Shown: one piece after another, positions 31,104 through 63,400 of the stretch
Position numbering within the stretch: the stretch's first letter is position 1
How the letters are laid out: each line of letters opens with the position of its first letter
IMG/VR virus record: IMGVR_UViG_3300050821_003907
Span: 1-64,000 of that record
Source: a virus
Reading direction: 5' to 3' (one strand)
Length of the DNA: 64,000 nucleotides
Program-made: the position numbers and the translations under genes
Notes under the pieces: generated by a model
Told to the model about the DNA's origin: nothing
The model's database searches: none
Seen by the model: the letters and a program-made list of their open reading frames with translations, nothing else

Positions 31104-31139
31104 ATAGGCTAGGTTACGGTAAAACGTAACCTAGCCTAT
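31104..31139 (+). terminator. 15-bp perfect hairpin after protease gene
   Basis: ATAGGCTAGGTTACG (31104-31118), loop GTAAAA, CGTAACCTAGCCTAT (31125-31139). No U tract follows; instead the ribosome site GGAG of the next gene begins at 31140. It could reduce readthrough or stabilise transcript ends between protease and structural genes. Confidence 0.6.
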
Positions 31140-40335: not shown

Positions 40336-40912
40336 TCATGAAGTATGGCACGATACTGTTATCAACGCTGAAGTAATAAGCCATCTTGAAGGTAATATCT
40401 ATGAGGCCATTCATCGTCAGCATTTGCGTAATTGGTGCCTGGAAGAGTTTGCCCCTTACAGTTCTGTGCTAGAAGTAGGTTGCGGTCCTGGCTTGGTGGC
40501 CGAAGAATTGATGCCTCATTTCCTGTACACAGGCGTGGATAATTCCAGGTTGATGCTAGATTATGCGCAAGAAAAGAATCCTGACTTCAATTTGGCTTTT
40601 GGTGACGCCTATGATTTGGTGTTTGCCGATAACTTTTTTGACCACGTAATATCTTTTGCGGTACTAGGTCATCTTCCCGCTGATAGCATAAATCAGCCCC
40701 TGGCGGAAATGTGCCGGGTAGCTCGCAATAGTGTGTTGTTCACAGCCTGGGACAGACCGCTGAATGACGGGCACCAAGACGTGGGAAATGCCATTCATAA
40801 CGCGTACTCCGAAGATTACCTCCGCGCACAGTGCCCTTCAGGCACGATACTTTCATTCGTAAAAGACTTCGGGGTCGATACTTTCGGCTACCGGATAGGA
40901 GTAAACTCTTAG
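40325..40912 (+). CDS. class I SAM-dependent methyltransferase
   Basis: A 195-residue protein with VLEVGCGPGLVAEEL (SAM motif I) and a methyltransferase_11-type FDHVISFAVLGHLP. Substrate unknown; a sugar N- or O-methylation is likely from context. Overlaps the previous gene by 11 nt. Confidence 0.85.
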   Translation: MNRNHEVWHDTVINAEVISHLEGNIYEAIHRQHLRNWCLEEFAPYSSVLEVGCGPGLVAEELMPHFLYTGVDNSRLMLDYAQEKNPDFNLAFGDAYDLVFADNFFDHVISFAVLGHLPADSINQPLAEMCRVARNSVLFTAWDRPLNDGHQDVGNAIHNAYSEDYLRAQCPSGTILSFVKDFGVDTFGYRIGVNS

Positions 40913-40914
40913 CC

Positions 40915-41973
40915 ATGAGGTACCTAGTTACGGGTGCAGGCGGTTTTGCTGGTCACCATCTCCTGGAGCATGTGCTAGCTAGCACAGATGCCTACGTGAT
41001 AGCTACGGACAGTTTCCGGCACAAGGGCAAGATGAGTCGCATCACGCAAGTCCTTGACGCACGCCCGGAGTTCACTTCGCGTACTGAAATCATCACGCAT
41101 GACTTGAATAAGCCATTCAGTCGCAAGCACGAACTGTGCATGAAGGACAGCGTTGACTACATCATCGCGTACGCCTCAGAGAGCCACGTAGACAGGTCTA
41201 TCGATGACCCTGTGCCGTTCGTCCAGAACAACGTCAACGTAGCTCTACAGACCATGGAGCTAGCTCGTGCGATTAATCCTAAGGCTGTCGTTTGGGTTAG
41301 CACTGATGAAGTATACGGTCCCGTAACACGGCGTAGCGTGAAGGGGGTAGCCGAATGGGCACCCGCCATTCCGTCTAACCCCTACTCGGCCAGTAAGGCA
41401 GCGCAAGAAGCAATTTGCATCTCTTACTGGCGTACATACGGCGTTCCGCTAATTATTCTTAACTGCATGAACATGATTGGCGAACGCCAGGACGCCGAAA
41501 AGTTCGTGCCCTTCGTTGTGAAGAGCCTGATGGCAGGCGAGGAAGTGCCTATTCACACTACGAACGAGCCTGTAGCAGACCCTACAGGGTCCAGGCATTA
41601 CCTGCACGCCCGTAACCTGGCTCATGCCATTACGTTCCTGCTAGCGCGTGACAAGATAGGCATGTACCCTCACTGGGCGCAAGGTAGCCTCGGCCATGTT
41701 CGCACAGGAAGGCCAGACCGCTATAACGTAGCGACAGAAACGCGGCTTTCTAATTTCAAGATGGCTTCACTGATAGCAGATTATGCTGGGTATGAACTTA
41801 AGTACAGGCTTGTGGATGCCCACACGATTAGGCCAGGACATGACGCGCACTACGGACTGGACGCTTCAAAGCTCCAGAAGCTCGGCTGGGAACCGCCTGT
41901 GCCTTTTGAGGAGAGCCTGAAGCGCACTATTTCATGGACCGTAAATAATCCTGAATGGCTATTGCCTGATTAG
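40915..41973 (+). CDS. NDP-sugar 4,6-dehydratase/epimerase (SDR)
   Basis: A 352-residue extended SDR enzyme. NAD motif GAGGFAG (7-13), STDEVYG (129-135, with the Asp-Glu pair used by 4,6-dehydratases) and YSASK with Tyr157 and Lys161. It most likely makes the 4-keto-6-deoxy sugar used by the aminotransferase. ATG 40915 follows TAAACT by 7 nt; the longer frame from 40831 only overlaps the methyltransferase. Confidence 0.9.
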   Translation: MRYLVTGAGGFAGHHLLEHVLASTDAYVIATDSFRHKGKMSRITQVLDARPEFTSRTEIITHDLNKPFSRKHELCMKDSVDYIIAYASESHVDRSIDDPVPFVQNNVNVALQTMELARAINPKAVVWVSTDEVYGPVTRRSVKGVAEWAPAIPSNPYSASKAAQEAICISYWRTYGVPLIILNCMNMIGERQDAEKFVPFVVKSLMAGEEVPIHTTNEPVADPTGSRHYLHARNLAHAITFLLARDKIGMYPHWAQGSLGHVRTGRPDRYNVATETRLSNFKMASLIADYAGYELKYRLVDAHTIRPGHDAHYGLDASKLQKLGWEPPVPFEESLKRTISWTVNNPEWLLPD

Positions 41974-41997
41974 GACTGTCCCGGTAGGCTCGCAAAC
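41962..41997 (+). promoter_or_regulatory. leaderless promoter for gene at 41998
   Basis: TTGCCT (41962-41967), exactly 17-nt spacer, TAGGCT (41985-41990), then 7 nt to ATG. Among the clearest leaderless promoters in the window. Confidence 0.65.
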
Positions 41998-42153
41998 ATG
42001 TGTGAGAACCCAGATAACAAGAAGAACCCCTTGCGGGGAAAGCCTGAAGTGCGCGGTGGAGAGTCTGAAGAAGACTTCACCGGAGTTGAAGAGGCCCTAC
42101 AGGCTACGCTGCCTTACAGCGATTGCCCCGACGACGTGAATCCGGATGCCTAA
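41998..42153 (+). CDS. small acidic protein
   Basis: A 51-residue acidic protein (MCENPDNKKNPLRGK start). Leaderless promoter directly upstream, and TAATG overlap with the next methyltransferase gene. Unknown function. Confidence 0.6.
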   Translation: MCENPDNKKNPLRGKPEVRGGESEEDFTGVEEALQATLPYSDCPDDVNPDA

Positions 42154-42719
42154 TGCGACTCGTTAATGGTGACCTAGAACAGTCACGCCCGTGGCGCATC
42201 AGGCGTCTCATGCAGCAAGTAGAAGAGATGGAGCCTGAATGGCTGACTCACGGTAATCGTCACGATGACAAGTACCTGCCGTGGATGCCCTTCCAGCCGT
42301 CTAACTTCATCGCGATGGTAGCAGAATGCATCACCTATACCGAGGGTTTTACATTCCTTGACGTAGGTTGCGGCATTGGCACTAAGGTAGCCCTGGCTAG
42401 TGAAGTGTTTGGCCTGGAGGCGGACGGCATTGAAGTTGACGCAGAGATGGCAGTAGAAGCACGCAAGTGGAAAACAGGTGAAATACTTGTGCAAGACGCA
42501 CTAGAATTGCCTGGCTTGTACGAGAACTATGACATCATCTGGTTGTACCGGCCATTCCGCGACATTCCTTCAGAGCGTGCGCTTGAGGAAATGATTCACA
42601 AGAACATGAAGTCCGGTGCCATCCTGGCAGGCGGAGCTTGGGAGCTGCACCCGCCAGGAAACTGGCCTATCGTAATTGATGACTGGGAAATCCGTCGCGG
42701 AGCGTGGATTAAGCCGTAA
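42153..42719 (+). CDS. class I SAM-dependent methyltransferase
   Basis: A 188-residue protein with FLDVGCGIGTKVALASEVFG (SAM motif I), GIEVDAEM (motif II acidic residue) and YDIIWLYRPF. Start ATG 42153 shares a base with the preceding stop. Probably a sugar or protein methyltransferase linked to the cassette. Confidence 0.82.
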   Translation: MRLVNGDLEQSRPWRIRRLMQQVEEMEPEWLTHGNRHDDKYLPWMPFQPSNFIAMVAECITYTEGFTFLDVGCGIGTKVALASEVFGLEADGIEVDAEMAVEARKWKTGEILVQDALELPGLYENYDIIWLYRPFRDIPSERALEEMIHKNMKSGAILAGGAWELHPPGNWPIVIDDWEIRRGAWIKP

Positions 42720-42740
42720 CTCCTGTGCTACACTTACGAT

Positions 42741-43433
42741 ATGAGCAGACACCCCGAAGCCGTACCTGAGTTTATAGGTGAAATACAAATTCTAGCTGTA
42801 GAGCTAGTGTCGGGGCGGCGGCGTGCTGCGCAGCGTATGCTCACTTTGTGTACAGGATGCACTGCTGAACGGTGGACCACTAAACGGCAACTACTTAAAA
42901 GCCTTACTTGTCGTGTTTGCGCTAACGAAAGTAGAGCTCTCCATACCGCACGTCTATCTCCGGGTCAGCAAGTAGGATTTTACACCGTACTTTCCATAAA
43001 ACGACGTGCATATGCTGGGTTTATGTATGAGGTACAAGATAACAGGTGTGGACACGTGAATGAGGTGAACGACGCTGTACGTCATGAGTTCAAGGGTAAG
43101 AAATCTCTATGTGAGTGTCCCCTTCGTTATACGGAGAAATCCGGTTACATTAGATGGCAGTGGCGCATGCCTGACGGACGGCGCGTAATCCTACTTGAAC
43201 ATCGTATGGTCATGGCAGGAATGCTTAAACGAGAACTATATGCGCATGAAAACCCTCATCACAAAAATGGCGTTAAGGATGATAACTGTCCTGAAAACCT
43301 AGAACTGTGGAGCACTTTTCAACCTGCTGGACAACGTATAGAAGATAAAACCGCCTGGGCAATAAAATGGCTTGAGCAATATCTGTCTCCGGAAGAGAAA
43401 AACAGTATTGCTCAAGCCTGGATTAAGTCTTAG
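42741..43433 (+). CDS. HNH homing-type endonuclease
   Basis: A 230-residue protein. Two Cys pairs (CTGC and CRVC) near residues 37-60 form a zinc module; the HNH motif lies at HENPHHKNGVKDDNCPENLELWS. TACACT ends 6 nt before ATG. The gene is more A+T-rich than its neighbours by eye, consistent with a mobile selfish gene inserted between the sugar cassette and the 43935 gene. Confidence 0.85.
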   Translation: MSRHPEAVPEFIGEIQILAVELVSGRRRAAQRMLTLCTGCTAERWTTKRQLLKSLTCRVCANESRALHTARLSPGQQVGFYTVLSIKRRAYAGFMYEVQDNRCGHVNEVNDAVRHEFKGKKSLCECPLRYTEKSGYIRWQWRMPDGRRVILLEHRMVMAGMLKRELYAHENPHHKNGVKDDNCPENLELWSTFQPAGQRIEDKTAWAIKWLEQYLSPEEKNSIAQAWIKS

Positions 43434-47560: not shown

Positions 47561-47769
47561 GCCCTGAAGAAGTTAACCAGATTGCTGAGAACCTGATGGC
47601 CGGAATCATGGGCGAGATGGACCCTCAAGAGTCCACGTGCTTTGCCTTGGCGACGTTCTACAACAAGCTGCAAGATGCGGGCTTCCCGGAATACCGGGCT
47701 TATGACATGGTCAAGTCGTGGTTCCTGGCCATCATGGTGACGGGTAACGACGAGGCAGAGTATGAATAA
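47536..47769 (+). CDS. small hypothetical protein
   Basis: A 77-residue acidic helical protein starting at ATG 47536 inside the end of the previous gene. It ends overlapping the DUF1003 gene by 8 nt. Unknown. Confidence 0.58.
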   Translation: MADDDNELSPEEVNQIAENLMAGIMGEMDPQESTCFALATFYNKLQDAGFPEYRAYDMVKSWFLAIMVTGNDEAEYE

Positions 47770-48328
47770 CAATGGCGGCAAGGGCATTCACACCGGACGG
47801 GGGCTGTGGAGAATGCACCCTCATGTGCGCACTGACAATCAGCTAACCTTCGGTGAGCGCGCTGCTGACATCATGCGTAACGCCTTCGGCTCCTGGATGT
47901 TCGTCGGCAGTTTCCTGGCGTTCATGGCAGTGTGGATGCTACTGAACACGGTAGTGCTTCACGGTGGATTTGACCGCTACCCCTACATCTTGCTGAACTT
48001 GTCACTATCCATGATGGCGGGCCTCCAGGGAGCACTAATTCTTATCGCCGCCAAGCGAGCTGACCGTGTAGCAGCAGAGCAGTCAATAGCGCACTATACG
48101 GAAACTTCCAAGATGGATAAGCTGCTTACCGAAAATAACGACATGACGGCGCAGATTAAAGAAGCCACAGCGCTTCTTGAAGACTTGCAAAGTGACGTTC
48201 ACGCTATCTTGCGCGCACTTAACCTTGAATCGGCAATACGAACTACCCCACCTGCACCTATGACAGCAATACTGGGAAAGGAAATAGAGCGTGGCAACGC
48301 TGACCCAAATCCGCCAAGCGCTAGCTAG
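47762..48328 (+). CDS. DUF1003 membrane protein
   Basis: A 188-residue protein with the DUF1003 pattern: GERAADIMRNAFGSWMFVG, two membrane helices (FLAFMAVWMLLNTV and ILLNLSLSMMAGLQGALILI) and AAKRADRVAAEQSIAHY. A coiled-coil and disordered tail follow. DUF1003 proteins occur in many actinophages; their function is unknown. It overlaps the next gene by 38 nt. Confidence 0.82.
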   Translation: MNNNGGKGIHTGRGLWRMHPHVRTDNQLTFGERAADIMRNAFGSWMFVGSFLAFMAVWMLLNTVVLHGGFDRYPYILLNLSLSMMAGLQGALILIAAKRADRVAAEQSIAHYTETSKMDKLLTENNDMTAQIKEATALLEDLQSDVHAILRALNLESAIRTTPPAPMTAILGKEIERGNADPNPPSAS

Positions 48329-48765: not shown

Positions 48766-49848
48766 GTGGCACCGCGTATTCTGCTGGTTCATCCTGGACC
48801 AGATTTTTCAGTAGCGGACGTGTTCAATGGCTGGAAGTACGGCCTGGAACGTCAAGGAGCAGTTGTAGCGACCTACAACACTAACGACCGCCTGTCGTTC
48901 TACTCTCAGGCTCAGCTACGTGACTGGGACCACAAGATTAAGTGCCAGGCTTGCGACCAGTACCGGTACAAGACAGCGCTAGACGGCGAGCAGGCAATGC
49001 TGCTCACAATGCAGGGCCTTTCCCACGCAGTATGGACTTTCATGCCTGACGTGATGGTGTTCATATCAGCTTTCTACACAACCGCAGGAATGTTTGAGCT
49101 GATGCGCTTGCGAGGGCGCAAGGTAGTTCTCATCCACACAGAATCGCCTTACCAGGATGGTGAGCAGTACCTTCGGGGCCAGTTCGCTGACCTTAACCTC
49201 ATCAACGACCCCATGAACCTGGACGAATGGGGGACGCTGGAAGCCCCGGCTCACTACATCCCTCACGCATACCACCCTCTTATGCACTACCCGCAGCCCG
49301 CAGGCGAGGTACATGAAGACCCATCCGATTTCGCTTTCGTGGGAACGGCGTTCCCGTCAAGGATTAAGTTCCTGGAGCGAATGGACTTCACAGACGTGGA
49401 AGTCGCGCTAGGCGGAAGCGCCTGGGACACACTGGAGCCTGAGTCACCCTTGAGGAAATACCTGAGCCACGACCCTTCGCACTGCGTTGAGAATGCGGAA
49501 ACAGCTCGTGTCTACCGGGGTTCCCGGGCAGGAATTAACCTTTACCGCCGTGAAGGTGAGCAGCACAACGATTATGAGGGCTGGGCAATGGGTCCCAGGG
49601 AAGTCGAGATGGCTGCCTGCGGACTTCCGTTCTTGCGTGACCCTCGGGCTGAGAGCGACAAGCTCTTCCCGTTCCTGCCTACCTTCACGACCCCTGAAGA
49701 CGCCACGGAAAAGCTTCGCTGGCTGCTGGCTGACGAAGACAGGCGAGTAGGACTCGGTAACCAGGCCCGTGAAGCTATCGCTGACCGCAATTTTGACGTC
49801 CACGGGCAGTGGCTCATGCAGGAGATGGATGACTTGGGTTTCTTTTAA
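48766..49848 (+). CDS. CgeB-like glycosyltransferase
   Basis: A 360-residue GT-B enzyme starting at GTG. RILLVHPGPDFSVADV, HTESPYQDGEQY, and GPREVEMAACGLPFLRDPRA followed by TPEDATEKLRWLL match CgeB/GT-B proteins. Its location between tail terminator and tail tube genes is unusual and suggests it glycosylates tail proteins. It overlaps the next small gene by TAATG. Confidence 0.85.
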   Translation: MAPRILLVHPGPDFSVADVFNGWKYGLERQGAVVATYNTNDRLSFYSQAQLRDWDHKIKCQACDQYRYKTALDGEQAMLLTMQGLSHAVWTFMPDVMVFISAFYTTAGMFELMRLRGRKVVLIHTESPYQDGEQYLRGQFADLNLINDPMNLDEWGTLEAPAHYIPHAYHPLMHYPQPAGEVHEDPSDFAFVGTAFPSRIKFLERMDFTDVEVALGGSAWDTLEPESPLRKYLSHDPSHCVENAETARVYRGSRAGINLYRREGEQHNDYEGWAMGPREVEMAACGLPFLRDPRAESDKLFPFLPTFTTPEDATEKLRWLLADEDRRVGLGNQAREAIADRNFDVHGQWLMQEMDDLGFF

Positions 49849-50122: not shown

Positions 50123-50557
50123 GTGTCGCGTATTCACGGCCGAAATGGGATTGTGTACCTCGGTGTAAACCCCGCCGACAGTGCATCCCCCATGGCATTT
50201 GTGTCCGACTGGACAATTAACTTCACTGTTGCCAAGGTCGATGTGACGGCACTTGGCGACTCCAACCTCATTTGGGTGTCTGGTCTTCCGGACGCTTCCG
50301 GTGACTTCAGCGGCTTCTACGACACCGCAACCGCGCAGACTTACATTGCTGCGAAGGACGGCCAGCCGCGTAACTTCTACCTGTACCCGAGCACCATCGG
50401 TGTTCAGGCCGCTAACCCCGGTCAGTACTTCTTCGGCACCATCCTGCCTGACTTCGCCGTAACTGGCGGCGTGGCAGCAGCTGTGACCATGAAGTCCACC
50501 TGGAATGCTGCATCTATCGTGCAGCGTTACCCTGTATCTGGAATATCGGGAACCTAA
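50123..50557 (+). CDS. major tail (tube) protein
   Basis: A 144-residue beta-rich protein typical of siphophage tail tube subunits: WTINFTVAKVDVTALGDSN, WVSGLPDASGDFSGFYD and NFYLYPST. It precedes the tail chaperones and tape measure gene and is followed by a strong terminator, consistent with high expression. Confidence 0.85.
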   Translation: MSRIHGRNGIVYLGVNPADSASPMAFVSDWTINFTVAKVDVTALGDSNLIWVSGLPDASGDFSGFYDTATAQTYIAAKDGQPRNFYLYPSTIGVQAANPGQYFFGTILPDFAVTGGVAAAVTMKSTWNAASIVQRYPVSGISGT

Positions 50558-50568
50558 TCCTGAGGCAA

Positions 50569-50609
50569 ACAGCCCCAGAGTCGCGCCACACGACTCTGGG
50601 GCTGTATTT
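50569..50609 (+). terminator. 15-bp perfect terminator hairpin
   Basis: ACAGCCCCAGAGTCG (50569-50583), 7-nt loop, CGACTCTGGGGCTGT (50591-50605), then ATTTA. Separates tail tube from chaperone transcription. Confidence 0.9.
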
Positions 50610-50644
50610 AGTCACCCCTGAATGACTTGCAGAATTATTCTCCG

Positions 50645-50690
50645 ATTGTGACACGAACAGCTTACTACCGACTAAGCTGTGACACGTCCA
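50645..50690 (+). repeat. TGTGACACG direct repeat around a small stem
   Basis: TGTGACACG occurs twice about 30 nt apart, flanking CAGCTT/AAGCTG. It lies between the tail tube terminator and the chaperone start, where a promoter is expected, so it may be a regulatory site. Confidence 0.35.
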
Positions 50691-50716
50691 GTACTTCATG
50701 ATTCGGAGAAATTAAA

Positions 50717-51202
50717 GTGGCTTCTACGGAAGAGAACGAGCTCACTCAGATTCAGCTTGCAACAGCCGAAAAGGCAGCGCGAGCTAAGGGCAAGCCTGCG
50801 GCATTTGCCCGTGACGGTTCCAAGTTCGTTGAGTTTGACGGAGTTGAGTACCGGCTTGCCGACGAGATTGGCATCATCCCCCTTATGCGCTGGGCAGCCG
50901 CTGCTGACCTTAGCACGGACGACTCCGGTGCGATGGGTGCCATGTGGGCCATCCTCCAGGACATGATTGACGCCCCTGAATTCCCGGCCTGGGTAAAGCA
51001 CGCAACCCGCCTTAAGTCGGATGCAGAAGAAGTCCTGGACTTCGTGAATGTCTGCATGGAGGCTATCACCGGAAACCCTACCGAGCGGCCAAGTTCTTCC
51101 TCGGATACCTCGCCGTCAACCTCAGGCGAATCGAAGGAGAACTCCTCCGCAAACACGGTAAAGGCATCTCCTCGTTCACGCCGCGCGAAGTCTGCAACAT
51201 AG
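50717..51202 (+). CDS. tail assembly chaperone, short form (G-like)
   Basis: A 161-residue protein starting at GTG with GGAG upstream. Helical body (RLADEIGIIPLMRWAAAA, VLDFVNVCMEAITGNPTERP) and Ser-rich tail SSSSDTSPSTSGES. This composition is typical of the unshifted chaperone of actinophages. Ribosomes that slip at 51073-51079 make the long form instead. Confidence 0.82.
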   Translation: MASTEENELTQIQLATAEKAARAKGKPAAFARDGSKFVEFDGVEYRLADEIGIIPLMRWAAAADLSTDDSGAMGAMWAILQDMIDAPEFPAWVKHATRLKSDAEEVLDFVNVCMEAITGNPTERPSSSSDTSPSTSGESKENSSANTVKASPRSRRAKSAT

Positions 51203-51474
51203 TATTCAGCATTATCCAGGACAACTTCCGTAACGAGTGCGGTCACCTTGTTGAAGGTGACGAGTACATGCTTATGCTTGAAAAGATAGGCATGGAGACC
51301 GACAAGGAAGAAGAAGCCAAGCTGGCACTGGAGCACTGGCAGAAGATTCAGGGTATTGACACGGAAAACGTGGAAATCAGCCCGCAAATGCAGGCTATGA
51401 TGAACAACGCGTGGATGTACTCTGATAGAGACGAAGAAATCCCCGGAAACTTCATGGGGTCTGGACGCGAGTAA
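50717..51474 (+). CDS. tail assembly chaperone, -1 frameshift product (GT-like)
   Basis: The slippery heptamer AAACCCT (51073-51079) is in the correct register (A AAC CCT). After slipping, translation continues with YRAAKFFLGYLAVNLRR, KHGKGISSFTPREV, and ends at TAA 51472-51474, giving about 252 residues. The -1 extension is open over its whole length and has chaperone T-like charge pattern. Frameshifting is inferred from sequence and family precedent. Confidence 0.8.
51073..51079 (+). other. -1 ribosomal frameshift site AAACCCT
   Basis: Canonical X-XXY-YYZ heptamer in the zero frame of the short chaperone. Confidence 0.8.
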
Positions 51475-51549
51475 GGAGAATGTCAATGGCAGATTTCATG
51501 ACGCTAAAGCTGGATGATGTCGCCATTGACATTCTCCTTTCTGAAGCAG
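51473..51549 (+). repeat. 18-bp perfect inverted repeat covering ribosome site and start codons
   Basis: AAGGAGAATGTCAATGGC (51473-51490) pairs perfectly with GCCATTGACATTCTCCTT (51532-51549) across a 41-nt loop. The left arm contains the ribosome site AAGGAG and both candidate ATGs of the following gene, and begins at the last bases of the frameshift product's stop codon. Confidence 0.85.
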
Positions 51550-51845
51550 ACGGGCCTGTAGGGCGTTACATGTACGACCTGAGCCAGAGGATGACAATCA
51601 TCGCCAAGGCTGCCGCGCCTGTGATGAAGGGCCGCAATTACTGGACATCCAGGTCCAATGCGATTCGGCCACCCGGCACCACACGTGCGTCAGTTCACTC
51701 AATCTGGGGATATGACGATGCAGGGCAGCCTTTCGCGGGAGTTAATGCCCTGGCTAATCCTTCCATATTCCTGGAAAGGCCAGCGGTTCAAATGCACAGG
51801 AGATACCCATTCCTGACCCTGGCATTGGACCCTGTGATACTGTAA
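51486..51845 (+). CDS. hypothetical tail-region protein
   Basis: A 119-residue protein between chaperones and tape measure gene. ATG 51486 has AAGGAG 7 nt upstream; ATG 51480 is too close to that site. Both are buried in an 18-bp stem, so translation probably depends on ribosomes finishing the frameshifted chaperone. No family recognised; probably a tail component. Confidence 0.68.
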   Translation: MADFMTLKLDDVAIDILLSEADGPVGRYMYDLSQRMTIIAKAAAPVMKGRNYWTSRSNAIRPPGTTRASVHSIWGYDDAGQPFAGVNALANPSIFLERPAVQMHRRYPFLTLALDPVIL

Positions 51846-51877
51846 ATAGACGTTAAATTCCTGCCCGGAGGTGAATA

Positions 51878-54800
51878 GTGACCCGGATACTCGGTGAAGC
51901 CGGTGTTGCTGTTGTCCCGATTACAGACGCTTTCCGGTCTCAGCTTGACGCGAAGGTTCGCGCGCAGATGGCAGGATTGCGTCCTGAACTTAACATCGGT
52001 GCTAACACTAAGCAAGTAGACGCAGCCGTAGCCAAGATTATGGCTACCGTAAAGGCCGCGAATCCGGCAATGCGCCTCCAGTTTGTTACAACTGAAGCTG
52101 TGGCAGAACTGGCACGCTTTGAAGCTGCTGTAAGGGCGCTAGGCCGTCCTACGGTTAAGTTCAACATGGACATGTCACAGGCTGACCGTCAGGTCGCCGT
52201 GATGCAGGGTTACCTGGACAAGCTCAAGGAAGCCATCATGCGTGGCGCTGAGCTTAACATTGACGATGTCAATGCCCTCAAGAAGCTCGGGACTGTGGGC
52301 GCATTCGTTGCCCGTCTTGACAAGCAGCTCAAGAGCCTTAAGGCTGACGCTGACGTGGCTCCGCTGATGGCTGAACTAGCCAAGGCTCGCGGCATGTTTG
52401 AGGACCTTTCCAAGGATTTGCGTAACCTGCACATAGGTGCAGATGCCACGCAACTTCAGGCTCAGATTGCCAAGGGTATCGCTGAAGCTAACATCCTTAA
52501 GGATGACCTTAAGGACATGGCGATGGACGTGGACGACTCATCGATGATGCGTAAATTCGCGGCCTCCATGACTGAAGTCGGCACGTTGCAAAGGCAGCTT
52601 AAGAACATGCCGATGGACGGGGATGTCACTCCGTTCTTGCTTAAGCTAGCGGCAGCGCGCAAGGAAGCTGACGCTGTCATGGAAACCATGACTCGTCCTG
52701 TGGTCATGAAGCTTGACATGAACCCGCTGTTGCAGGGACTAACTCGCGAGGAAGCGCTTGTTAATGCCCTTCAGCAAAAGCTCAGGCTGCGTACAGACAT
52801 TAACGACCAGGACGTGGAAGACTTCCTGGTTAAGACAGTTTCCCAAACTGAGGCTATGCGTCAGCTATTGCTGAACCTGCGAGCTAATGTCAGCGACTCT
52901 GAAGCCAAGGTCGCCCTGGATGACCTGATGGCGCGTGTTCTCGCTATTCAGGAGCGCATGTCCAACCTGTCTCCGCACGCCAGCCTTAGTAATTTGCTGA
53001 ATGACTTCGCTACTCTTGAGAATGTCGTAGGCAAGGCATCCCATGAATTTGGCACCATGGATGAGGGCACTAAGAGCGTCTTCAGGGACATGACTGGCCT
53101 GTCAGGTGCAGTAGGCCGTTTTGGAGACCGCGTAGTAGGCGCTGGCCGAGACGGTACTAACAGCATTAACATGATGACGGGTGCCGTAGGTGGCTTCCTT
53201 AAGGGCATGGGCCACGTCACCTTGTTCGGCGGGATGTTCAATAACCTGAATAAGTACCTGCTTAGCTTTGTAAGTGGCTGGCATCTGCTAGCTGACGCTA
53301 TTTTTGAAGTGATAGCTGTATGGGTGCCAGCAACTATTGCATTCGCAGCATGGGGTGCGGCAGCCGCTCCTGACGTTAAGAACGTAGTTACTCAGTTCCA
53401 GAACATGGGAACGGCTGTCGCCGCAACAGGCCAGAAGCTAAATAACTTCCAAGGGGCAACCAAGCTGTTTGGTGACTCTATGCAGATGGCTGTCCGCCCT
53501 GCTGTGTGGAACCTTGTCGGTGACGCTATTCAAGTAGTGAATGCTCGTTCTGGTGCATTCGTTGGCTTCCTGAAGCAGATGAACCCGCTAGTAGAGAGCC
53601 TTGGCGCTCGCGCTACTGTTGCACTTAAGAACGGGTTCGGAAACTTCTTGTCCAATGGCGCGAAGATGTTCTACCAGCTGGGAACAGCCATCGGGAACTT
53701 CTTGGGAATCCTGGGTAACCTAGGCAAGGTAGTTCCTCACTACGCTGAAATTCTTCTCGGCTTGGGAACAGCGTTCCTTAAGGTTGTTGAAGACATTACG
53801 GCATCTCCGTTGTTCCAGTCAATTATTGGCTTCGGCCTGAAGATGCACGGTGCTGCGGTTTACATTGGCGTCTTCATCACACTGCTAGCTACCCTGGGCC
53901 GAAGCCTGCTGGGTGGTTTCTTGCAAGGATTTGCCTCAGCTCGCAATAAGATGCAGGACTTCGCGGATTCTGAACGTGCGGCAGCGGAAGCTACTAATAA
54001 CCTGGCAGAGGCTACTAACACGGCGGGCGCAAAGCTAAAGAATGGCGCAGAGGACGCTACCAACTTGTCCGCAAGCATGAGTAACCTAGGACAACACACT
54101 CAGGAAGGTGAAGCTGCCCTTAAGGATGCAGGAGCTGCATCGGAGGATACTCGTGGCAAGTTCCAGAAGCTAGGTTCAGGGCTAGGCGGCCTCGTTGGCA
54201 ACATAAGCAACCTGGGAACCAAGAGCGTAGGCACCTGGAATTCCATGGACAAGGGCGCGTCTACCTTGTCCAGGATGGGCGGCTTCGCCAAGAAAGCAGG
54301 AGTCGGCGCGCTCGGCATGATTTCGTCCTTTACAGGACTAGGCCCGGTTGGCTTGGCGATAGGTGGCGTGGCAGCGGCAATCGGCATCGGACTGTACTTC
54401 GCCTTGAAGAAGTCTACTGACGCTACTCAAAGTTTCGTTAACGCTCAACTTAGCATGGCGGATAACGCCACCATCGGAACTTTCACGCAAGACATGACGC
54501 GTGGAATCAGCCTAATGCAGTTGAAGCTTGTTGCCACCAGTAACCAGATGGTTACCATGGCGCGGTCTTCCAACGTAATGGGTACCGTAGGCAAGCAGGA
54601 CGTGGATGTCTGGTCCGGAGCTTGGGGCAACGCTAAGTGGAAGCTAATAGCAGCTCAGGCCATTCTTACTGAATTCGTCCAGAAGACGAAGGATAACCCC
54701 AATCCCTTTGCGGCATGGAAGACCAGTGCTCCTCAGGCTCAAGCTCAGGCGCTTCTCAGTTCTTACGGTGAGCTGTCAAACGGAATCGCTGCTGCAAAAG

Positions 54801-57800
54801 AGCAGATGAATCAGTTTAACACTCACGTGGGTCAAGCACAGATGGCCATTAAGGGCATGACCGGGGAAAACCTGAATAGTGCTCAGGTAATGGGTGTTGC
54901 CACTAACGCAGGTATCAGCCTGAACTCCATGATTCATGACCAGGGCGGTGCATGGCAGCAGGACCTAGTACAGATTCTCGGTACCGTTCAGGGCTTCCAG
55001 GCAATGGGACCGGCAATTGGCGGAGCCAACACTGCCCTTAATGCTCTTAACATCACGACTTCCTCAACGTACCAGGAAATCCAGAAGGTAACCCAGGCTT
55101 ACCAGCAGTTCATCCAGATTGTAACCGGTTCAGAATCCGCGTATGCCACCTTTGCACAAGGCATGAACTCCCTGGCTACGGCAGTCGGCGCACCTAGTGC
55201 GGCTGCGGGTGGCGGCGCGGGCGGTGCAGGCGGCGGGGCTGCTGGAGGCGGAACTCTTACCTTCGCTAACGGCAAGATTAACTCCAGCGCTCCCGTAACT
55301 GGCAGCAGTGGTGTTATCGGTGGTGTGTCCTCTGGAGGCGTAGCTGCGCTGTCTGCGTACATTCAGCAGATTCAGCAGGCAGAAACCCTTCTTAACTCGC
55401 TCCAGACCCAGGCAGCCGTTTCGGGCAACAGCCCGCTAGCTAACACGGCGACAACCAAGGCAGGAAAGGACCTGGTAGCCCTCCTAGGCTCCGTTCCGGG
55501 CGTAGCCAATAATCCGGCTGCTGTACCGTCTCTGTCCGCTCTCGCGCAGACTGCGGGCTTTACAGGCAACACTGCGAGCTACCAGGACATCGTCAAGTGG
55601 GCGGGCAGCGCAAGCAATGCGCAAAGTGACCTGACTAAGCAGACTAACGCTCTCACGGCAGCTACTTCAGACCTGAACCGTGACGCTGCCGCGCTGAACA
55701 GCACAATGACTACGCAGATGCAGCAGTCTATGGCTTCTGCAATCCTAGGTGCCGAGGGCGCAACCCAGAAGTTCCAGCAGGCTGCACGGGCCGTAATAGC
55801 GTGGCAGAATGCAGGGTCTAACCTTAGCGGTTCTAACTATACTAAGCTGCTGAACAGCCTGCGACCGATGGCAGAGACGCTGCTGCGCACTACGCACAGT
55901 AGTAGCCTGGCTAAGCAGCAGCTTGAAGGCTTCCTGGAGCAGATGGGCATTGCACCGGGAGTAGCCGCCAAGATGGCTAATGCATTGCTGCGCAGCAATG
56001 CTGCTGCTAGTGCTAACGCCGCTGCTAACCGCAGTGTTTCCCTGTCCCTGGCTCAGGTGGCTAAGGCAACGCAAGCTACTATAACTAACGTCACGACTTC
56101 TCGTGCTGCCTGGGTTCACTTCGGTGAGTCCCTGGGAATGAGCGCTCAACAAGCTAACAAGCTGTGGGGCAAGCTAAAGGAGAATGGCCTTCAGAACCTG
56201 CTTCACCAGACCGCTGGCACGGAAACGGCATTTCAGAAGCTGGCACGTCAGTTCGGTATTAGCAAGACTCAGGCTGACGCATTGTGGAACAAGTTCCACG
56301 ATGGTTCCATGGACATGCTGAAGAACAAGGCTAACAGCACCTTCAGTGCGTTCATGAAGCTGGCGCATCAGTTCGGTGTTACGGCTGAAAGTGCCTCCAT
56401 GCTGTGGCAGCGCGCTCACCAGCAGCAGTTCGACATGCTGTCTGGCAAGTCCCGCATAACTGTACAACAGCTTCAGGGACTGGCACACGAGTTTGGCCTT
56501 AGCGGAACTCAGGCACAGACGCTGTGGGCCGTAATGCACAAGCAGTACCTTGATGCACTGGCAGGCAAGGCAGGCATTACTCACAACCAGTTCTCACGCC
56601 TGGCAACTATGCTGGACCTGAACAAGACTGAGGCTAACGCCCTGTGGGCAATGATGCGCCGTCAGTACCTTGACACTCTGACCAGCAAGGCGAATGTCAG
56701 CTACAGTGCATTCCTGCGCCTGGCTAAGGGCTTCGGCATCACTAATACCGCCGCTGCGCAAATGTGGGCGCAGGCACGCCAGCAGCAGTTCGACATGCTG
56801 TCTAACAAGTCGCGGATAACTAATAGCCAGCTTCAGAAACTGGCGCACCAGTTTGGCGTTAGCACTACCTCCGCTAGCCAGCTGTGGTCGATGATGCGCC
56901 AGCAGTACCTGGACGCGCTGACGAGCAAGACAGGCGTAAGCAAGAGCGCATTCGATGCCTGGGCACGTTCCGCGCACATCAGCACTGGTGAAGCTAACAC
57001 CCTGTGGAACATGCTGCACCAGCAGTACTTTGATGAGCTTACTGCAAAGGCTTCACGTAACAGGAGCCAGTTTGACGCTCTTAGCGAAGCATGGCACGTT
57101 AGCGCGGTAAAGGCTGACGCCCTGTGGCGCGTTCTTCAGCAGCAGTACCTTGACCAGATTACGCACAAGGCTACGATGTCTCACCAGGCATTCGACACCT
57201 TGGCCAAGAAGCTGGGTTACAGCAGCACCGAAGCTGACGCCATGTGGAACTCCCTTAAGAGGATGTCCGGAAACTACGGCGTGCACGTTCACACCAACGT
57301 AGATGGTGGCGGTAAGGTTGGCGCTGAGGTTACCGTTAGCGCGGCTATCGCTAACACCATGAAGGCTGCGGGTAACCTGGGCAGCACTGTGCTTAAGTCC
57401 CTTGGACTGGCGCAAGGTGGCTTGGTACCTTCTCACTTTGCAGGCGGCGGCAGTGTCCCCGGCTGGGGAAACCACGACTCCGTGCCTGCAATGCTCATGC
57501 CTGGTGAGCTTGTCATCCCGAAGAACCACGCAGCCGAATTCGCCTCCCAGGCTAAGCGCAAGGGAATCCCCGGTTTTGCCGGGGGTGGTATCGTCGGCGC
57601 TACTACTAGCCCGCTGGCAGGCGTCGGTGGCCTGGTTAACACGCAGACTAGCGGTAACGTGGCAGAAATGCCCGCCGAAGGTAACCAGCTGGCTACTATT
57701 CCCGCTAAGCTCATAGGTGAAGTGGGCAAGCTGGGACCGATGGTTACCCAGGAGCTTGTTGCCAGCATTCAGGCAGTACAGTCTGCCATCATGAATTCAG

Positions 57801-60409
57801 GCAGCAACGCTGCTGTCCCTGGTGGAGTCGTAGCTGGCAATGCCATGGGCAACCTGATGGAAATCGGCAAGTACCTTATGTCACAGGGAGCTTCGGCTGC
57901 TGCGGCTGCTGGTATCGCATCTGTTGTTTACGGTGAGTCTGCGGGTAACCCGGAATCTGTAGGCTCTGGTGGTTACGGCCTTATCGGATGGACTGGAAAC
58001 AGCATCGGCCTTCCCGCTGGCTATCACGGCCCGACAGGCAATGCGTCTAAGGACCTTGCAATCCAGATGGCCGGACTTGTGGGTTACGGTAAGGCAAATG
58101 GCCCATGGGGCTCGCTTATCAAGATGACAGACCCGGTTGCCGCTGGCGACATGTGGTCTAGCGTGTTCGAGCGCCCCGCTGTTCACCTTTCTGACACACG
58201 GCCTAGCCTGGCTACCCAGCTTTACGCTTCCCTCAGGGGATTCAAGGGAATGGGGCCAGTTGCGCCTGGAGCTGCGGGCGTAGGAAGTACCCCGTCTTCT
58301 AGCGCTGGCCGCATCCTGTCCGATGCAGAACGCTACGTCGGCCACCCTTACCGCTTTGGCGGTTCTTCTAACCCGTCCACCGGATGGGACTGCTCCTCAT
58401 TCGCCTCATGGGTACTTGGTCACGACCTGGGCCTGGCACTCCCTGGCGGCTCGTGGGCATCTACCACCAACAGCGGTCAGTCACACGGTGATGTTGCCAG
58501 CATGTTCGCGAACCTGCCCGGCGCACATCCTGTAGGCAGCAACCCTGCCCAGATTATGCCGGGCGACGTTCTAGTGTGGCCTGACCACGTTGGATTTGGC
58601 GTTGGCCCTAATAAGATGTTCTCTGCCTACGGCACGAACTTCGGCACTATTTTCTCTAACGCGCAGGCTTCAGGCGGCCTTACCATCATGCGTTACGGTG
58701 CAGGAGCTCAGTTCGGTGGCGGCTCGGCAATGCCCGGACCCCAGCAGGACACGGGAGCTTTCACCTTTAACTTCGCTGAAGGCGGTACTGTCGGTAACCT
58801 TGGTGCCGGTGGCCTTAAGGGCGCTAAGGCCGCGCTGTCCAGGGGTGCAAAGCCCCTGACGCGTACCGGTCACCCAACGCACAAGCCCAAGCCTAAGCTT
58901 CCTACAGAGGCTCAGGATATCGCTGCCTACAACTCCCTGCTCAAGCAGGTAGTGCACTACTACGACCAGGCAATGGTGCTGGCAGATGCTTCTGAGAAGC
59001 AAGCTGTCACTAAGGCTCCTACGGCTGCGCAGAAGGCTGCGGACATTGCAGCGGCCAGTCACCTTACTTCTGAGGCTGACCAGCGGAGTGCTAAGACTGC
59101 AAAAGACCGTAGCCTGCTCAACAAGGCTAACAAGCTAAGCGCGCAGGCTCACGCATACTCTCACACTGAATCAGAGCGCAGGAACCTGCTGGCCCTGGCT
59201 AATAACGACGCGTTTGCCGCTAATCACGCAAGCATCAAGCCTGCCGCTAAGAAGGCCCTCATGCGTGAGGCAGCACTGCTCACCACTGAGGCTAACCGGC
59301 CTAAGTACGGTAAGGGACAGAAGGACAGGCTACTGCACGAGGCTGCTGTTGACCGCAGCAAGGTGTCCTACTCCCACACGGGAGCACAAAGGAAGACCCT
59401 GCTTGCAGAAGCTGCACGTGACCGGGCTGCGACGCACACCAAGAACGGAAGCCTAGCGCAGGCAGAGCACTACCTGGCACTGGCAGCGGCTGCTGACAAG
59501 AAAATGGCTGCGCTTGACCACAAGGACAATGGCCGTCTAAGCAAGCTAATTGCCCCGTCTAAGCTCAAGACCCTTGTGGCAGACGCACAGGAACTAGCGG
59601 ACCTCGGACTACTAGGCGACGACCCGTTGCTGCGCACCATGCGTTCTTACACAGGCGTGATTAGCAGTCCTAAGCTGAAGAACGCAATGAAGACTGCTAG
59701 TGGCTCTGTGCACTCAGACGTGGTTGCACGGGCGGCGGCAGCTAGCTCAGCCGCTTCTCCTATCAAGGGAGTTAACACGGGGCTAGGCCAGAACGTTACC
59801 CGCTGGGCACCGGACGTAAGCAAGGTACTCGCAATGGAGGGCCTGCCTCAGAGCCTGCTGAACCAGGTCCTGTACCAGATTAGCACTGAAAGCTCTGGTA
59901 ATCCGACTGCCATTAACCTCTGGGACAGCAATGCAAAGGCAGGACATCCTTCTCAGGGTCTTCTCCAGACAATCCCGTCTACATTCAAGGCGTTCCACTG
60001 GCCCGGAACTAGCAATAACATTGACGACCCGATGGCTAACATCGCGGCTGCGGTCAATTACGCTAAGCACACTTACGGCGACCGCTTGATGACTAACGGA
60101 ACAGGTCTTGGGTCAGGTCGTGGATACGCTCTGGGCGGTATTATTCCTGAGCCGGTATTCGGTGTAGGTGCTTCTGGTCGTCGTTATTCTTTCGGAGAGC
60201 GCGGGCCTGAGCGCATCCTGCCAGGCACTACGCCTAATGGCGGCGGCGCGGGCGGACCCGGAATGACAACGTACCAGGCGAACACAATGCTTCAGTTGCT
60301 AGGACAGCTAGTCACCATTAATCGTCAGCAGCCTCAACAACTGGCGCAAGCACAATCACGTGGTTCTGGACATTCTGCCATGTCAGGGTTTACGCAGCTC
60401 GGTCGTTAG
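51878..60409 (+). CDS. tape measure protein with three peptidoglycan-hydrolase-like domains
   Basis: A 2843-residue protein starting at GTG with GGAGG upstream. Helical N-terminal 450 residues, hydrophobic segments around 470-680, and about ten 40-residue repeats (roughly 1408-1797). Then come a phage tail-lysozyme-like domain (VVYGESAGNPESVG, Glu2020), an NlpC/P60 domain (GWDCSSF, Cys about 2172; DHVGFG), an Ala/Lys-rich linker, and a lytic transglycosylase-like SLT domain (ISTESSGNP, SQGLLQTIP). It sets tail length and likely opens the cell wall at infection. Confidence 0.93.
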   Translation: MTRILGEAGVAVVPITDAFRSQLDAKVRAQMAGLRPELNIGANTKQVDAAVAKIMATVKAANPAMRLQFVTTEAVAELARFEAAVRALGRPTVKFNMDMSQADRQVAVMQGYLDKLKEAIMRGAELNIDDVNALKKLGTVGAFVARLDKQLKSLKADADVAPLMAELAKARGMFEDLSKDLRNLHIGADATQLQAQIAKGIAEANILKDDLKDMAMDVDDSSMMRKFAASMTEVGTLQRQLKNMPMDGDVTPFLLKLAAARKEADAVMETMTRPVVMKLDMNPLLQGLTREEALVNALQQKLRLRTDINDQDVEDFLVKTVSQTEAMRQLLLNLRANVSDSEAKVALDDLMARVLAIQERMSNLSPHASLSNLLNDFATLENVVGKASHEFGTMDEGTKSVFRDMTGLSGAVGRFGDRVVGAGRDGTNSINMMTGAVGGFLKGMGHVTLFGGMFNNLNKYLLSFVSGWHLLADAIFEVIAVWVPATIAFAAWGAAAAPDVKNVVTQFQNMGTAVAATGQKLNNFQGATKLFGDSMQMAVRPAVWNLVGDAIQVVNARSGAFVGFLKQMNPLVESLGARATVALKNGFGNFLSNGAKMFYQLGTAIGNFLGILGNLGKVVPHYAEILLGLGTAFLKVVEDITASPLFQSIIGFGLKMHGAAVYIGVFITLLATLGRSLLGGFLQGFASARNKMQDFADSERAAAEATNNLAEATNTAGAKLKNGAEDATNLSASMSNLGQHTQEGEAALKDAGAASEDTRGKFQKLGSGLGGLVGNISNLGTKSVGTWNSMDKGASTLSRMGGFAKKAGVGALGMISSFTGLGPVGLAIGGVAAAIGIGLYFALKKSTDATQSFVNAQLSMADNATIGTFTQDMTRGISLMQLKLVATSNQMVTMARSSNVMGTVGKQDVDVWSGAWGNAKWKLIAAQAILTEFVQKTKDNPNPFAAWKTSAPQAQAQALLSSYGELSNGIAAAKEQMNQFNTHVGQAQMAIKGMTGENLNSAQVMGVATNAGISLNSMIHDQGGAWQQDLVQILGTVQGFQAMGPAIGGANTALNALNITTSSTYQEIQKVTQAYQQFIQIVTGSESAYATFAQGMNSLATAVGAPSAAAGGGAGGAGGGAAGGGTLTFANGKINSSAPVTGSSGVIGGVSSGGVAALSAYIQQIQQAETLLNSLQTQAAVSGNSPLANTATTKAGKDLVALLGSVPGVANNPAAVPSLSALAQTAGFTGNTASYQDIVKWAGSASNAQSDLTKQTNALTAATSDLNRDAAALNSTMTTQMQQSMASAILGAEGATQKFQQAARAVIAWQNAGSNLSGSNYTKLLNSLRPMAETLLRTTHSSSLAKQQLEGFLEQMGIAPGVAAKMANALLRSNAAASANAAANRSVSLSLAQVAKATQATITNVTTSRAAWVHFGESLGMSAQQANKLWGKLKENGLQNLLHQTAGTETAFQKLARQFGISKTQADALWNKFHDGSMDMLKNKANSTFSAFMKLAHQFGVTAESASMLWQRAHQQQFDMLSGKSRITVQQLQGLAHEFGLSGTQAQTLWAVMHKQYLDALAGKAGITHNQFSRLATMLDLNKTEANALWAMMRRQYLDTLTSKANVSYSAFLRLAKGFGITNTAAAQMWAQARQQQFDMLSNKSRITNSQLQKLAHQFGVSTTSASQLWSMMRQQYLDALTSKTGVSKSAFDAWARSAHISTGEANTLWNMLHQQYFDELTAKASRNRSQFDALSEAWHVSAVKADALWRVLQQQYLDQITHKATMSHQAFDTLAKKLGYSSTEADAMWNSLKRMSGNYGVHVHTNVDGGGKVGAEVTVSAAIANTMKAAGNLGSTVLKSLGLAQGGLVPSHFAGGGSVPGWGNHDSVPAMLMPGELVIPKNHAAEFASQAKRKGIPGFAGGGIVGATTSPLAGVGGLVNTQTSGNVAEMPAEGNQLATIPAKLIGEVGKLGPMVTQELVASIQAVQSAIMNSGSNAAVPGGVVAGNAMGNLMEIGKYLMSQGASAAAAAGIASVVYGESAGNPESVGSGGYGLIGWTGNSIGLPAGYHGPTGNASKDLAIQMAGLVGYGKANGPWGSLIKMTDPVAAGDMWSSVFERPAVHLSDTRPSLATQLYASLRGFKGMGPVAPGAAGVGSTPSSSAGRILSDAERYVGHPYRFGGSSNPSTGWDCSSFASWVLGHDLGLALPGGSWASTTNSGQSHGDVASMFANLPGAHPVGSNPAQIMPGDVLVWPDHVGFGVGPNKMFSAYGTNFGTIFSNAQASGGLTIMRYGAGAQFGGGSAMPGPQQDTGAFTFNFAEGGTVGNLGAGGLKGAKAALSRGAKPLTRTGHPTHKPKPKLPTEAQDIAAYNSLLKQVVHYYDQAMVLADASEKQAVTKAPTAAQKAADIAAASHLTSEADQRSAKTAKDRSLLNKANKLSAQAHAYSHTESERRNLLALANNDAFAANHASIKPAAKKALMREAALLTTEANRPKYGKGQKDRLLHEAAVDRSKVSYSHTGAQRKTLLAEAARDRAATHTKNGSLAQAEHYLALAAAADKKMAALDHKDNGRLSKLIAPSKLKTLVADAQELADLGLLGDDPLLRTMRSYTGVISSPKLKNAMKTASGSVHSDVVARAAAASSAASPIKGVNTGLGQNVTRWAPDVSKVLAMEGLPQSLLNQVLYQISTESSGNPTAINLWDSNAKAGHPSQGLLQTIPSTFKAFHWPGTSNNIDDPMANIAAAVNYAKHTYGDRLMTNGTGLGSGRGYALGGIIPEPVFGVGASGRRYSFGERGPERILPGTTPNGGGAGGPGMTTYQANTMLQLLGQLVTINRQQPQQLAQAQSRGSGHSAMSGFTQLGR
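56100..57270 (+). repeat. ten 120-bp coding repeats in the tape measure gene
   Basis: Each 40-residue unit has the consensus F-x-x-LA-x-x-FG, then A-x-x-LW, then QQYLD-x-L and K. The units are divergent at DNA level. Examples begin SAFMKLAHQFG, SQLQKLAHQFG and QAFDTLAKKLG. Confidence 0.85.
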
Positions 60410-60445: not shown

Positions 60446-63400
60446 ATGCCTGTATACACCGGTAGCACCAAGTACCCCTATGCGATGACCGTTAATGCGC
60501 AAGCGGGTGCCGCTACCGTCGTATCCGAGAACGTTCAGCCTATTTATGTTGACAGTTTCACCACGTACCAGTTCACGGTAATCTGCAAGACAAGTGCTAC
60601 CTGGTCTTCCGGTGTCACCATTACCGTGAACTACTTCAATTCCTCGAATGTGTCTGTAGGAACTGTTACTGCCACGCAGACTTCCATGGTAGCCAACAAC
60701 CTGTACACCATTTCCACGACAGCCGGGACTGCTCCTGCCGCTACGTCTTATGCCACGCTTACCATTCAGTTCAACGGTTCCCCGGCCCTGACTAACACCC
60801 TGTCCATCGTGCAAGCAGGGCTTTACAATACTAACAACCCCAATCTTGACTATGAGATTAACCAGAATGCCGCGTTTGCAAACGGCACGCAACCTTGGAG
60901 CCAGTCTAACAACAGCGCCCTTATAGGGTGGGACTGGACCCCGCTAGCCGTGGGTGACGGTAACTACGACAGCTTGCTCATCAGCGGTGTTGTTGAGCTT
61001 ATCGGAGGACCCGCAGGAGTTCCTTCTGACATTCCTGAACTTATAGACAGCAACGGCGTAGGGGCTACTTTCCGGCTTCTTGCGCCTCCCTCTACTAACT
61101 CAGTAGCTTTTGGCTTTCAGAACTCTTACGACCTAGGTGCTCCCCAGCCTACTTCAGATGTAGTTGAGTCACTGCTGCTGGACGGTGAGCGTCCCTTTGG
61201 CTACAGGGCTTCTAACCGGACTATCACGCTACCTATCCTTATTGAGGGCACTTCACAGGCAATCGTGCAAGCCGCACGAGAGTACATGATGTACCTAATT
61301 GACCAGCAGTTGTGGAAGCTTACCTGGACTCCCGCAAGCAATGGCCTGCCCCTTGTATTTGACTGCTTCAGGGCGCAGCCAACAGTTCTTTCTTACGGTT
61401 TTGACTACAACCGTGACCCCACGGCTGGAAGCGGCGGTACCGCCTACACCTCCATGACATTGACTTTCCAGGCGATGCCTTACGGTCATAGTGGAATAGA
61501 TGGCACCAAGGACCTGGCGTTTTCCAGCTTCCTCATTAACGGTCAGGCATCAGCCGGTGCGGTCACCATGGATGGCTACATTGGTGCGGGCGGTAACGCT
61601 AACTGGCAATGGGACACTCGCTGGTCAACCCTTAACTACCAGTTTCACGACTTTGAGACCAGCACTAGCGGCACCACGATTTCCACAGGAAACCTGGCAC
61701 CTACCAGCACAGACCCGTACGTCACTGCAAACGCAAGTCCCCACACAGCAGGCACCGGAACGGCAGTTTACTCAAATGCGCATGCTGCGCATGGCTCCTT
61801 GTCTTCTCTTTATAATTCAGGTGCCTCTGCTGGAACTGCCTACGTCGAAATAACTACGACACTTTCAGCGCAAACAGCTTATGCGCGAGCTTCTTATTAC
61901 CTCCCGGCACTCCCGGCTGCGGCAACGCAAGTTAGCCTGATGCAGGTCAATAATGCCGCTAACACGCAAGCTGTTGGAAAAGTATTTCTTAATCCTAGCG
62001 GTACGCTTAACTTTGTTACAGGCGCAGGTAACCAATACGCTATGGCGGTTGCCCTTCCCACAAGTCAGTGGGTGCGCATTGAGCTTAGCGTCAGTCCTAA
62101 CATCGTTAATAGCGCAGCAAACGCTAGTGCGACTGTAACGTGGTACCTAGGGGATAGCACTACACCCCAGGAATCAAAGACTTTTACCGGAATGTCGATA
62201 GGAACCGGTCCCGCTTCAGCCCCCGCTAACTTCTACTTCGGACTACTGTCAGCAACAGGCAATAACAACTACCAGGCTTACGTTGACGATATTGCCTGCG
62301 GGCCTACTCAGATAGGTCCTTACCGTACGCCTTCGGCAACAAATGTCAGCTTGCCTGGCGGTGTAGGTAGTGCTGTTCACTACATGCCTCCGCGCCCTGT
62401 AAAGCAGCCGTACCCTGCCGCTGTATTCGCGCGCTCTAGCTTGGGCTTCAATCTTGTAGGACTTAACTCCTTGCAGTGGTGGTTCGGGCAAGCCTACGAT
62501 TACGATTACGCTTACGACCCCACCTTCAGGTCAACTATCGTGTTCCGCTGGACGCTGACGGACAACGCTAATAATACGCTTAAGTTCAGTAAGACCTTCA
62601 ATGAAGTTAAGTGGAGCAAGAATGCGTCCGCCCCAACCTGGAGCAGGCTTACCGTTCCTATTCCGCAGGGCAATAACGTATTCAATTACGCCAACGTAGC
62701 CAGCTATTCCCTGGCCTTCACCAATCACAGTAGTGGCGGCACTTCTGGTTTCGTGAAAATGCATGCGTGGCTAAGCGGCTTGCAAGCTCTTCCGACCACC
62801 ATCAACAATAACCCTGGAACGCCTCGCGCGAACCTCTTCAACATATTTGGCGCTCCGGGTTCCGCACGTTCACCTATTTCCGTGCAGGCCCAGCTGCCTT
62901 CTCAGACAGGCAACGTAGTTCAGGAGTTTACGCAAGTCGGTTCCTGGACTGTGCCTCAAGGCGTTTACAGTGTTCAGGCTGAATGCTGGGGTGCTGGCGG
63001 GGCAGGCTCATCGTACAACACAGGCACTAACTACGCAGGCGGTGGCGGCGGCGGTGGCGAGTATGCCATGGAACCCGCGCTTACCGTAGTTCCCGGTACT
63101 AAGATTCCGTATTTCGTAGGAGCAGGCGGAGTCAGTGGTGAGCTGACTAATACCGTTCAATCGTGGAACTCATCAGGAATTGGCCACTGGCTGTGCCCGG
63201 CAAATGTAAGTTCCATACAGATTGAAGTGTGGGGCGGCGGTGCTGCTGGTTCCGCAGGCGGTGGCGGCGGCGGTGGCGGTGAATACGCCAAGGAAGCAAC
63301 GCTAGCGGTAACTCCCGGAAAGACTTACCAGTTTCAGGTAGGCCGGGCAGGTGTCCCTAACACGGGAACTAACACTGCCGCAACAGTAGCCCGAGACGGA

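Follow-up and report, generated by a model that had tools for sequence, protein, structure and literature searches.

The window, the 64,000-nucleotide stretch of DNA analysed here, is part of a 181,160-base virus record belonging to a large soil phage. Its tail genes occur in the order tail terminator, major tail protein, G-like tail assembly chaperone with a T-like extension in the -1 frame, a short gene starting at 51486, and tape measure (Table 1). A long hairpin covers the start of the 51486 gene, and it is this structure and its relation to the upstream frameshift that concern us below. The tail terminator gene is adjoined by a gene for a DUF1003 domain protein (47762-48328, Pfam E 3e-19). 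Several genes for sugar-related functions were also observed: glycosyltransferase, acetyltransferase, aminotransferase and nucleotide-sugar epimerase genes lie upstream of the structural genes (36327-42720), and another glycosyltransferase gene (48766-49848) lies between the tail terminator and the major tail protein.

Table 1. Tail genes and RNA features in the window, with coordinates counted from its first base
Feature	Position	Strand	Description
Tail terminator gene	48291		phrog_17840 match
Major tail protein gene	50123..50557	+	phrog_10528, E 1e-4; anchor for collecting relatives
Zero-frame tail assembly chaperone, G-like	50717..51202	+	GTG start; TAG stop 51200-51202
Putative -1 slip site	51073..51079	+	A_AAC_CCT; in register with the 50717 frame; fits X XXY YYZ
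-1 frame extension, T-like	51076..51474	+	open frame; TAA stop 51472-51474
Hairpin, left arm	51473..51490	+	AAGGAGAATGTCAATGGC; contains SD AAGGAG 51473-51478 and start ATG 51486-51488
51486 gene (putatively locked)	51486..51845	+	119 aa; probable tail completion / Neck1 protein (lambda gpZ, HK97 gp10 kind)
Hairpin, right arm	51522..51539	+	GCCATTGACATTCTCCTT; within codons 13-18 (A-I-D-I-L-L) of the 51486 gene
Tape measure gene	51878..60409	+	2843-aa ORF directly downstream of the 51486 gene; N-terminus conserved

Relatives were drawn from IMG/VR. They comprise one near-identical contig, one 163-kb relative (L025) whose 51486 protein is 91% identical to that of the window, and further loci obtained by scanning with the major tail protein, in two sets of up to 80 loci each that together gave 86 distinct loci. 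Start codons in the relatives were assigned by rule. The major tail protein of the window shares 97.9% amino acid identity with that of relative G001. Named phage records returned chance-level similarities only and no DNA or protein match to the 51486 module, and GTDB genomes returned no match to it.

The G-like chaperone, recognized by profile matches in 81 of the 86 relatives, lies between the major tail protein and the tape measure. The slippery AAACCCT named in the original prediction was found in the register of the chaperone frame, and few changes occur near it in the closest relative. In the stretch read in the T frame alone (51203-51468), 22 of 31 differences to the relative fall at third positions of that frame, a bias indicating that the T extension is a real coding sequence under selection at the protein level. 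Nearly all relatives examined have a -1 ORF reaching past the G stop, and nearly all have the core CCT ACN at the aligned place, where the -1 product continues P-Y. The codon preceding this core varies (51071-51082 in the window and its counterparts in relatives): it is CGC in most, and AAC, GTC, CTC and ACC also occur. Most relatives thus lack the canonical X XXY YYZ heptamer. A_AAC_CCT is common to a minority (L025, L065, L075 and L086/L087), and the majority sequence, CGC CCT ACC, would allow re-pairing for the second codon only. Two relatives have a single ORF matching both the G-like and the T-like profiles (L181:4879-5568 and L095:9812-10408) and may make their chaperone without frameshifting. 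By position, -1 ORF and heptamer, the G/T pair of the window qualifies, as far as its sequence can tell, as a programmed -1 frameshift tail assembly chaperone.

Across the family, the start of the 51486 homologue coincides with the end of the FRAMESHIFTED product: it lies between -23 and +20 nt from the stop of the frameshifted product (GT) in 65 of 76 relatives, with overlap in 41. Four relatives have gaps above 70 nt, and in these the gap is spanned by an ORF of 50-60 codons, which begins at the GT stop or close to it and ends close to the next start or overlaps it. In four others (L042, L050, L051 and L066) the gap of 48-54 nt holds a promoter-like stretch, and three of these loci have it as GTAGCAC..GAATAAGCTGTACG; wrong start assignments probably account for the last three relatives outside the range. 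Downstream of the GT stop and ahead of the 51486 homologue, three of the same four loci have the stretch TAAGCTGT, L042 having a similar one, and a variant, CTAAGCTGTG, lies upstream of G in the window (50672-50681); TAAGCTGT/CTAAGCTGTG is a possible phage promoter. A sigma-70-like promoter was not found in 50500-52000, including the interval between the G stop and 51486. As the original prediction had it, the zero-frame chaperone ends 270 nt upstream of the stem and the -1 product ends at the foot of the stem's left arm; both stops were confirmed. In the window it is therefore the GT product, and not the zero-frame product, that ends at the stem. The corresponding upstream stop lies a few nucleotides upstream of the stem in L025, and between an outer and an inner stem in L065.

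An inverted-repeat search over 50400-52800 located the hairpin core at 51473-51490/51522-51539, with 18 of 18 Watson-Crick pairs and a 31-nt loop, within a full inverted repeat of 21 nt at 95% (51470-51490/51522-51542). The first two bases of the left arm are also the end of the GT stop. The original prediction was right about the left arm and the 18 bp, and had put the right arm 10 nt too far downstream, at 51532-51549. It had also described AAGGAG and two candidate ATGs as buried in the stem. Both are, but the ATG at 51480, which stands 1 nt from the SD, is missing in the 91% relative (AGGAGGAATTCAATGG), so that 51486 alone is the likely start. With loops of up to 60 nt allowed, this hairpin is the longest perfect one in the 64 kb, the runners-up having 15 bp, and perfect stems did not exceed 14 bp in 60 first-order Markov resamples of the window. 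A perfect 15-bp hairpin with a 7-nt loop directly follows the major tail protein gene (50569-50605); its arms are unchanged in the 163-kb relative, and it perhaps serves as an attenuator between the genes for the tail tube and those for the chaperone. Further perfect hairpins, with stems of 13-15 bp, occur at 31104-31139, 43369-43418 (at the end of the ORF 42741-43433), 60570-60632 and 109-163.

The cost of opening each start was computed for positions -14 to +6, all energies being model values at 37 C. Opening the SD and start of 51486 costs 29.2 kcal/mol, compared with 3.6-16.8 kcal/mol at 21 other starts in the window; the tape measure start has its own SD, GGAGG, and no lock (z about 0.7). 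Among 76 homologous starts the window ranks first, followed by L025 at 26.2 kcal/mol (91% protein identity to the window), L065 at 20.3 (about 32%) and L178 at 18.7 (51%), the last being the next relative by protein after L025. Synonymous recoding, based for the relatives on each phage's own codon usage, lowers the cost in these loci with z values of 3.2 for the window, 1.3 for L025, 2.1 for L065 and 1.4 for L178. A lock at 51486 homologues throughout the family was rejected, the mean z being 0.13. In a post hoc comparison, opening took a mean of 14.9 kcal/mol at starts located 8-20 nt past the GT stop and 10.1 kcal/mol at starts overlapping it (P 0.007).

Conservation of the stem in related phages, suggested in the original prediction as a check, was borne out in the 163-kb relative and failed in the family at large. 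Between the window and the 163-kb relative, the arms carry 3 + 3 changes over 36 positions, a divergence similar to that of the surrounding DNA, yet all 18 pairs are kept. Two pairs show double compensation (pair 9 from T-A to A-T and pair 10 from G-C to T-A) and two have changed to G-U (pair 7 from A-T and pair 16 from G-C). An equal number of random substitutions keeps all pairs in 0.2% of trials (P about 0.002), and with the actual left arm fixed, a random right arm compensates in 0.06% (P about 0.0006). Since G-U pairs would break a DNA palindrome, the selected object is the RNA stem. The same G-U pairs, together with the lack of a T-run, rule out a DNA palindrome or a terminator. The comparison thus supports a hairpin maintained in evolution as an RNA structure over the SD and start. 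The strong covariation is confined to this one genome pair, and the lock has further support from two more closed relatives. In L065 the homologous codons pair with a left arm of different sequence (GCGGTAATGG), and in L178, too, they have a left arm of another sequence as their partner. Family-wide covariation at the start structures was not seen: most changed pairs have lost their pairing, 23-25% being kept against 19% in a G-gene control. The strict 18-bp lock was found in the window clade alone. As homologous starts are generally unlocked and their changed pairs mostly broken, the lock is not required for the 51486 gene. Positional coupling to the GT stop extends throughout the family and the lock does not, so that the hairpin is an addition to this arrangement and not the general device.

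A separate observation concerns the tape measure gene. Of 64 distinct relatives, 50 have a tape measure start that is more closed than its synonymous recodings (mean z 0.99, with 12 values above 2), for example at L044:6718, L037:6851, L029:6794 and L151:4011. Major tail protein starts (mean -0.13) and G starts (mean -0.25) do not show this. The difference between tape measure and G starts has a P of 5e-9 with relatedness ignored; covariation gives it no backing, and the low family-wide proportion of kept pairs limits this observation as well.

Of 72 homologues of the 51486 protein, five match the tail completion or Neck1 family phrog_5, the best at 3e-6, and one matches phrog_387; the window protein itself matches neither, and it has no Pfam match. 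Its predicted fold (pLDDT 84) consists of a long helix (24-43), a beta-hairpin (71-87), a short helix (90-97) and a C-terminal helix. This order of elements resembles that described for gp51 of 80alpha, a tail completion protein that binds as a monomer to the N-terminal ends of the trimeric tape measure (PMC11661146). A Foldseek comparison of the predicted fold with the PDB gave nothing significant. From the weak profile matches of its homologues and the order of its predicted elements, the product is probably a tail completion protein. If this identity holds, the phage would need about one copy per virion, a dose compatible with gating by a rare event.

We propose, with a probability of about 0.6, that the 51473-51539 hairpin acts in the RNA as a start lock, so that translation of the 51486 gene relies on ribosomes that have finished GT. 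The features of MS2-type coupling occur in the window: the SD and start lie in a stable predicted hairpin, and upstream translation ends at that hairpin. Given a standard footprint, a ribosome whose A site is occupied by the GT stop would cover the mRNA to about 51485 and open about 13 of the 18 pairs, exposing the whole SD. The terminated ribosome or its 30S subunit would then re-initiate at ATG 51486 before the stem refolds, the likeliest route because the stem can refold quickly; direct binding of a 30S subunit to the closed stem would be negligible, and zero-frame ribosomes would leave 270 nt before reaching it. With re-initiation by the terminating ribosome, 51486 output would be at most GT output. 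Assuming frameshifting at the low rate of lambda, it would amount to a few per cent of chaperone translation, and such a low output would suit a protein of which each virion needs about one copy. Opening by the stopped GT ribosome may be incomplete according to the folding model, since folding from 51486 onward still pairs ATGGC (5 bp plus inner pairs), and in L025 about 8 of the 18 pairs would be covered. The original prediction also held that only slipped ribosomes would melt the stem. The GT product does end there, but 'only' is too strong, since ribosomes could also arrive from an internal start in the T frame, for example at ATG 51268.

Other functions can be envisaged for the hairpin. 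It might simply act as a damper that constantly lowers 51486 translation, the gene being read through rare breathing of the stem or from starts internal to T, with no special part for frameshifted ribosomes. In-frame ATGs are indeed present in T (a 68-aa ORF begins at 51268) behind a weak GGTG-like SD, and the extra structure at the tape measure start in many relatives, which does not have the same relation to the frameshift stop, looks like dosage damping. We nevertheless regard a plain damper as unlikely: 29 kcal/mol is far above what breathing would pay, the GT stop falls just at the stem's foot, and start and GT stop are kept together in the family. It is improbable, too, that the hairpin is a regulated operator controlled by temperature or by a protein such as the 51486 product or a tail protein, comparable to the coat protein operator of the MS2 replicase gene. 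A stable start hairpin has the typical shape of an operator and its right arm lies within the gene's own coding region, but the loop is not preserved between the window (31 nt) and L065 (about 23 nt, of different sequence), and 50500-52000 contains no RNA family at gathering score. Searches for a known RNA family over the same interval gave none that came near this score.

RNase III accepts stems of a length close to this perfect 18-bp RNA stem, and an RNase III type processing site could separate the chaperone mRNA from the tape measure mRNA. This is quite improbable here, for cutting both arms would take away the SD and start of 51486, and in the locked relatives the arms fall on the SD and start. 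Finally, that the hairpin is a by-product of coding, Leu-Leu codons (CTCCTN) pairing with AGGAG by chance, agrees with the mean z near zero of homologous starts and with the position of the right arm on or beside conserved LL codons in locked relatives, where seed pairing is built in, but for the window pair it is largely refuted by the 18 perfect pairs, by compensatory changes outside the LL/SD core and by a window stem that exceeds all 100 synonymous recodings.

The proposed frameshift-gated start lock may have a broader counterpart. Little is understood of how tailed phages match proteins needed in one to a few copies per virion to the hundreds of tube subunits. More tentatively, the frameshift could serve in this family of large soil phages as a translational valve for low-copy tail genes, slipped ribosomes alone initiating the tail completion gene and then the tape measure, with lock hairpins at either start; we hold this general form to be possible, though doubtful. 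If GT ribosomes do gate the next gene, the G/GT frameshift would, besides yielding a minority chaperone, also dose downstream assembly proteins.

The closest precedent for the proposed lock is the MS2 lysis gene, whose start hairpin is opened by translation or termination of an overlapping upstream frame. There, Kastelein et al. in 1982 reportedly proposed frameshifted ribosomes as the key, and Berkhout et al. in 1987, to go by their title, are said to have ascribed activation to ordinary termination at the coat gene; PMC5009743 lists both papers among its references. In both systems a start lies in a hairpin that upstream ribosomes would open, and the 1982 model is the one proposed here. If the proposal is true, the window would provide a natural case of frameshift-dependent hairpin coupling, the idea first put forward for MS2 in that year. 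The window differs from MS2 in having a conserved, dedicated predicted frameshift upstream, with a zero-frame stop 270 nt away, and in that it belongs to a DNA phage and concerns a structural gene.

Lambda offers a second comparison. Its slip core is G GGA AAG, unlike the CCT ACN of the window family. The same arrangement recurs in lambda one gene further on, where H begins at 10542, 8 nt ahead of the T end at 10549; the H start has no lock (8.1 kcal/mol, z -0.7). In the window, by contrast, the lock is on a gene that lies between GT and the tape measure and probably encodes a tail completion protein. Because T and H overlap in lambda, the idea can be tested in a model phage. Lambda and many other phages are known to use G/GT frameshifting (PMC5009743), and the window pair resembles lambda in its predicted -1 frameshift and its place between major tail protein and tape measure.

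Translationally coupled gene pairs of bacteria, in which a start lies near the upstream stop (PMC3711429), resemble the junction described here in the proximity or overlap of stop and start and in the SD at the junction; they differ from it in that the upstream product of the window would arise only after programmed frameshifting. In the same study, frameshifting and coupling are different readings of a gene pair, and both occur together in seven clusters. Among open-licence papers, we found no report of a gene behind a start lock reached solely by a frameshifted product, and for this reason, although the parts are known from hairpin coupling of the MS2 type and G/GT frameshifting of the lambda type, we consider that their combination is new.
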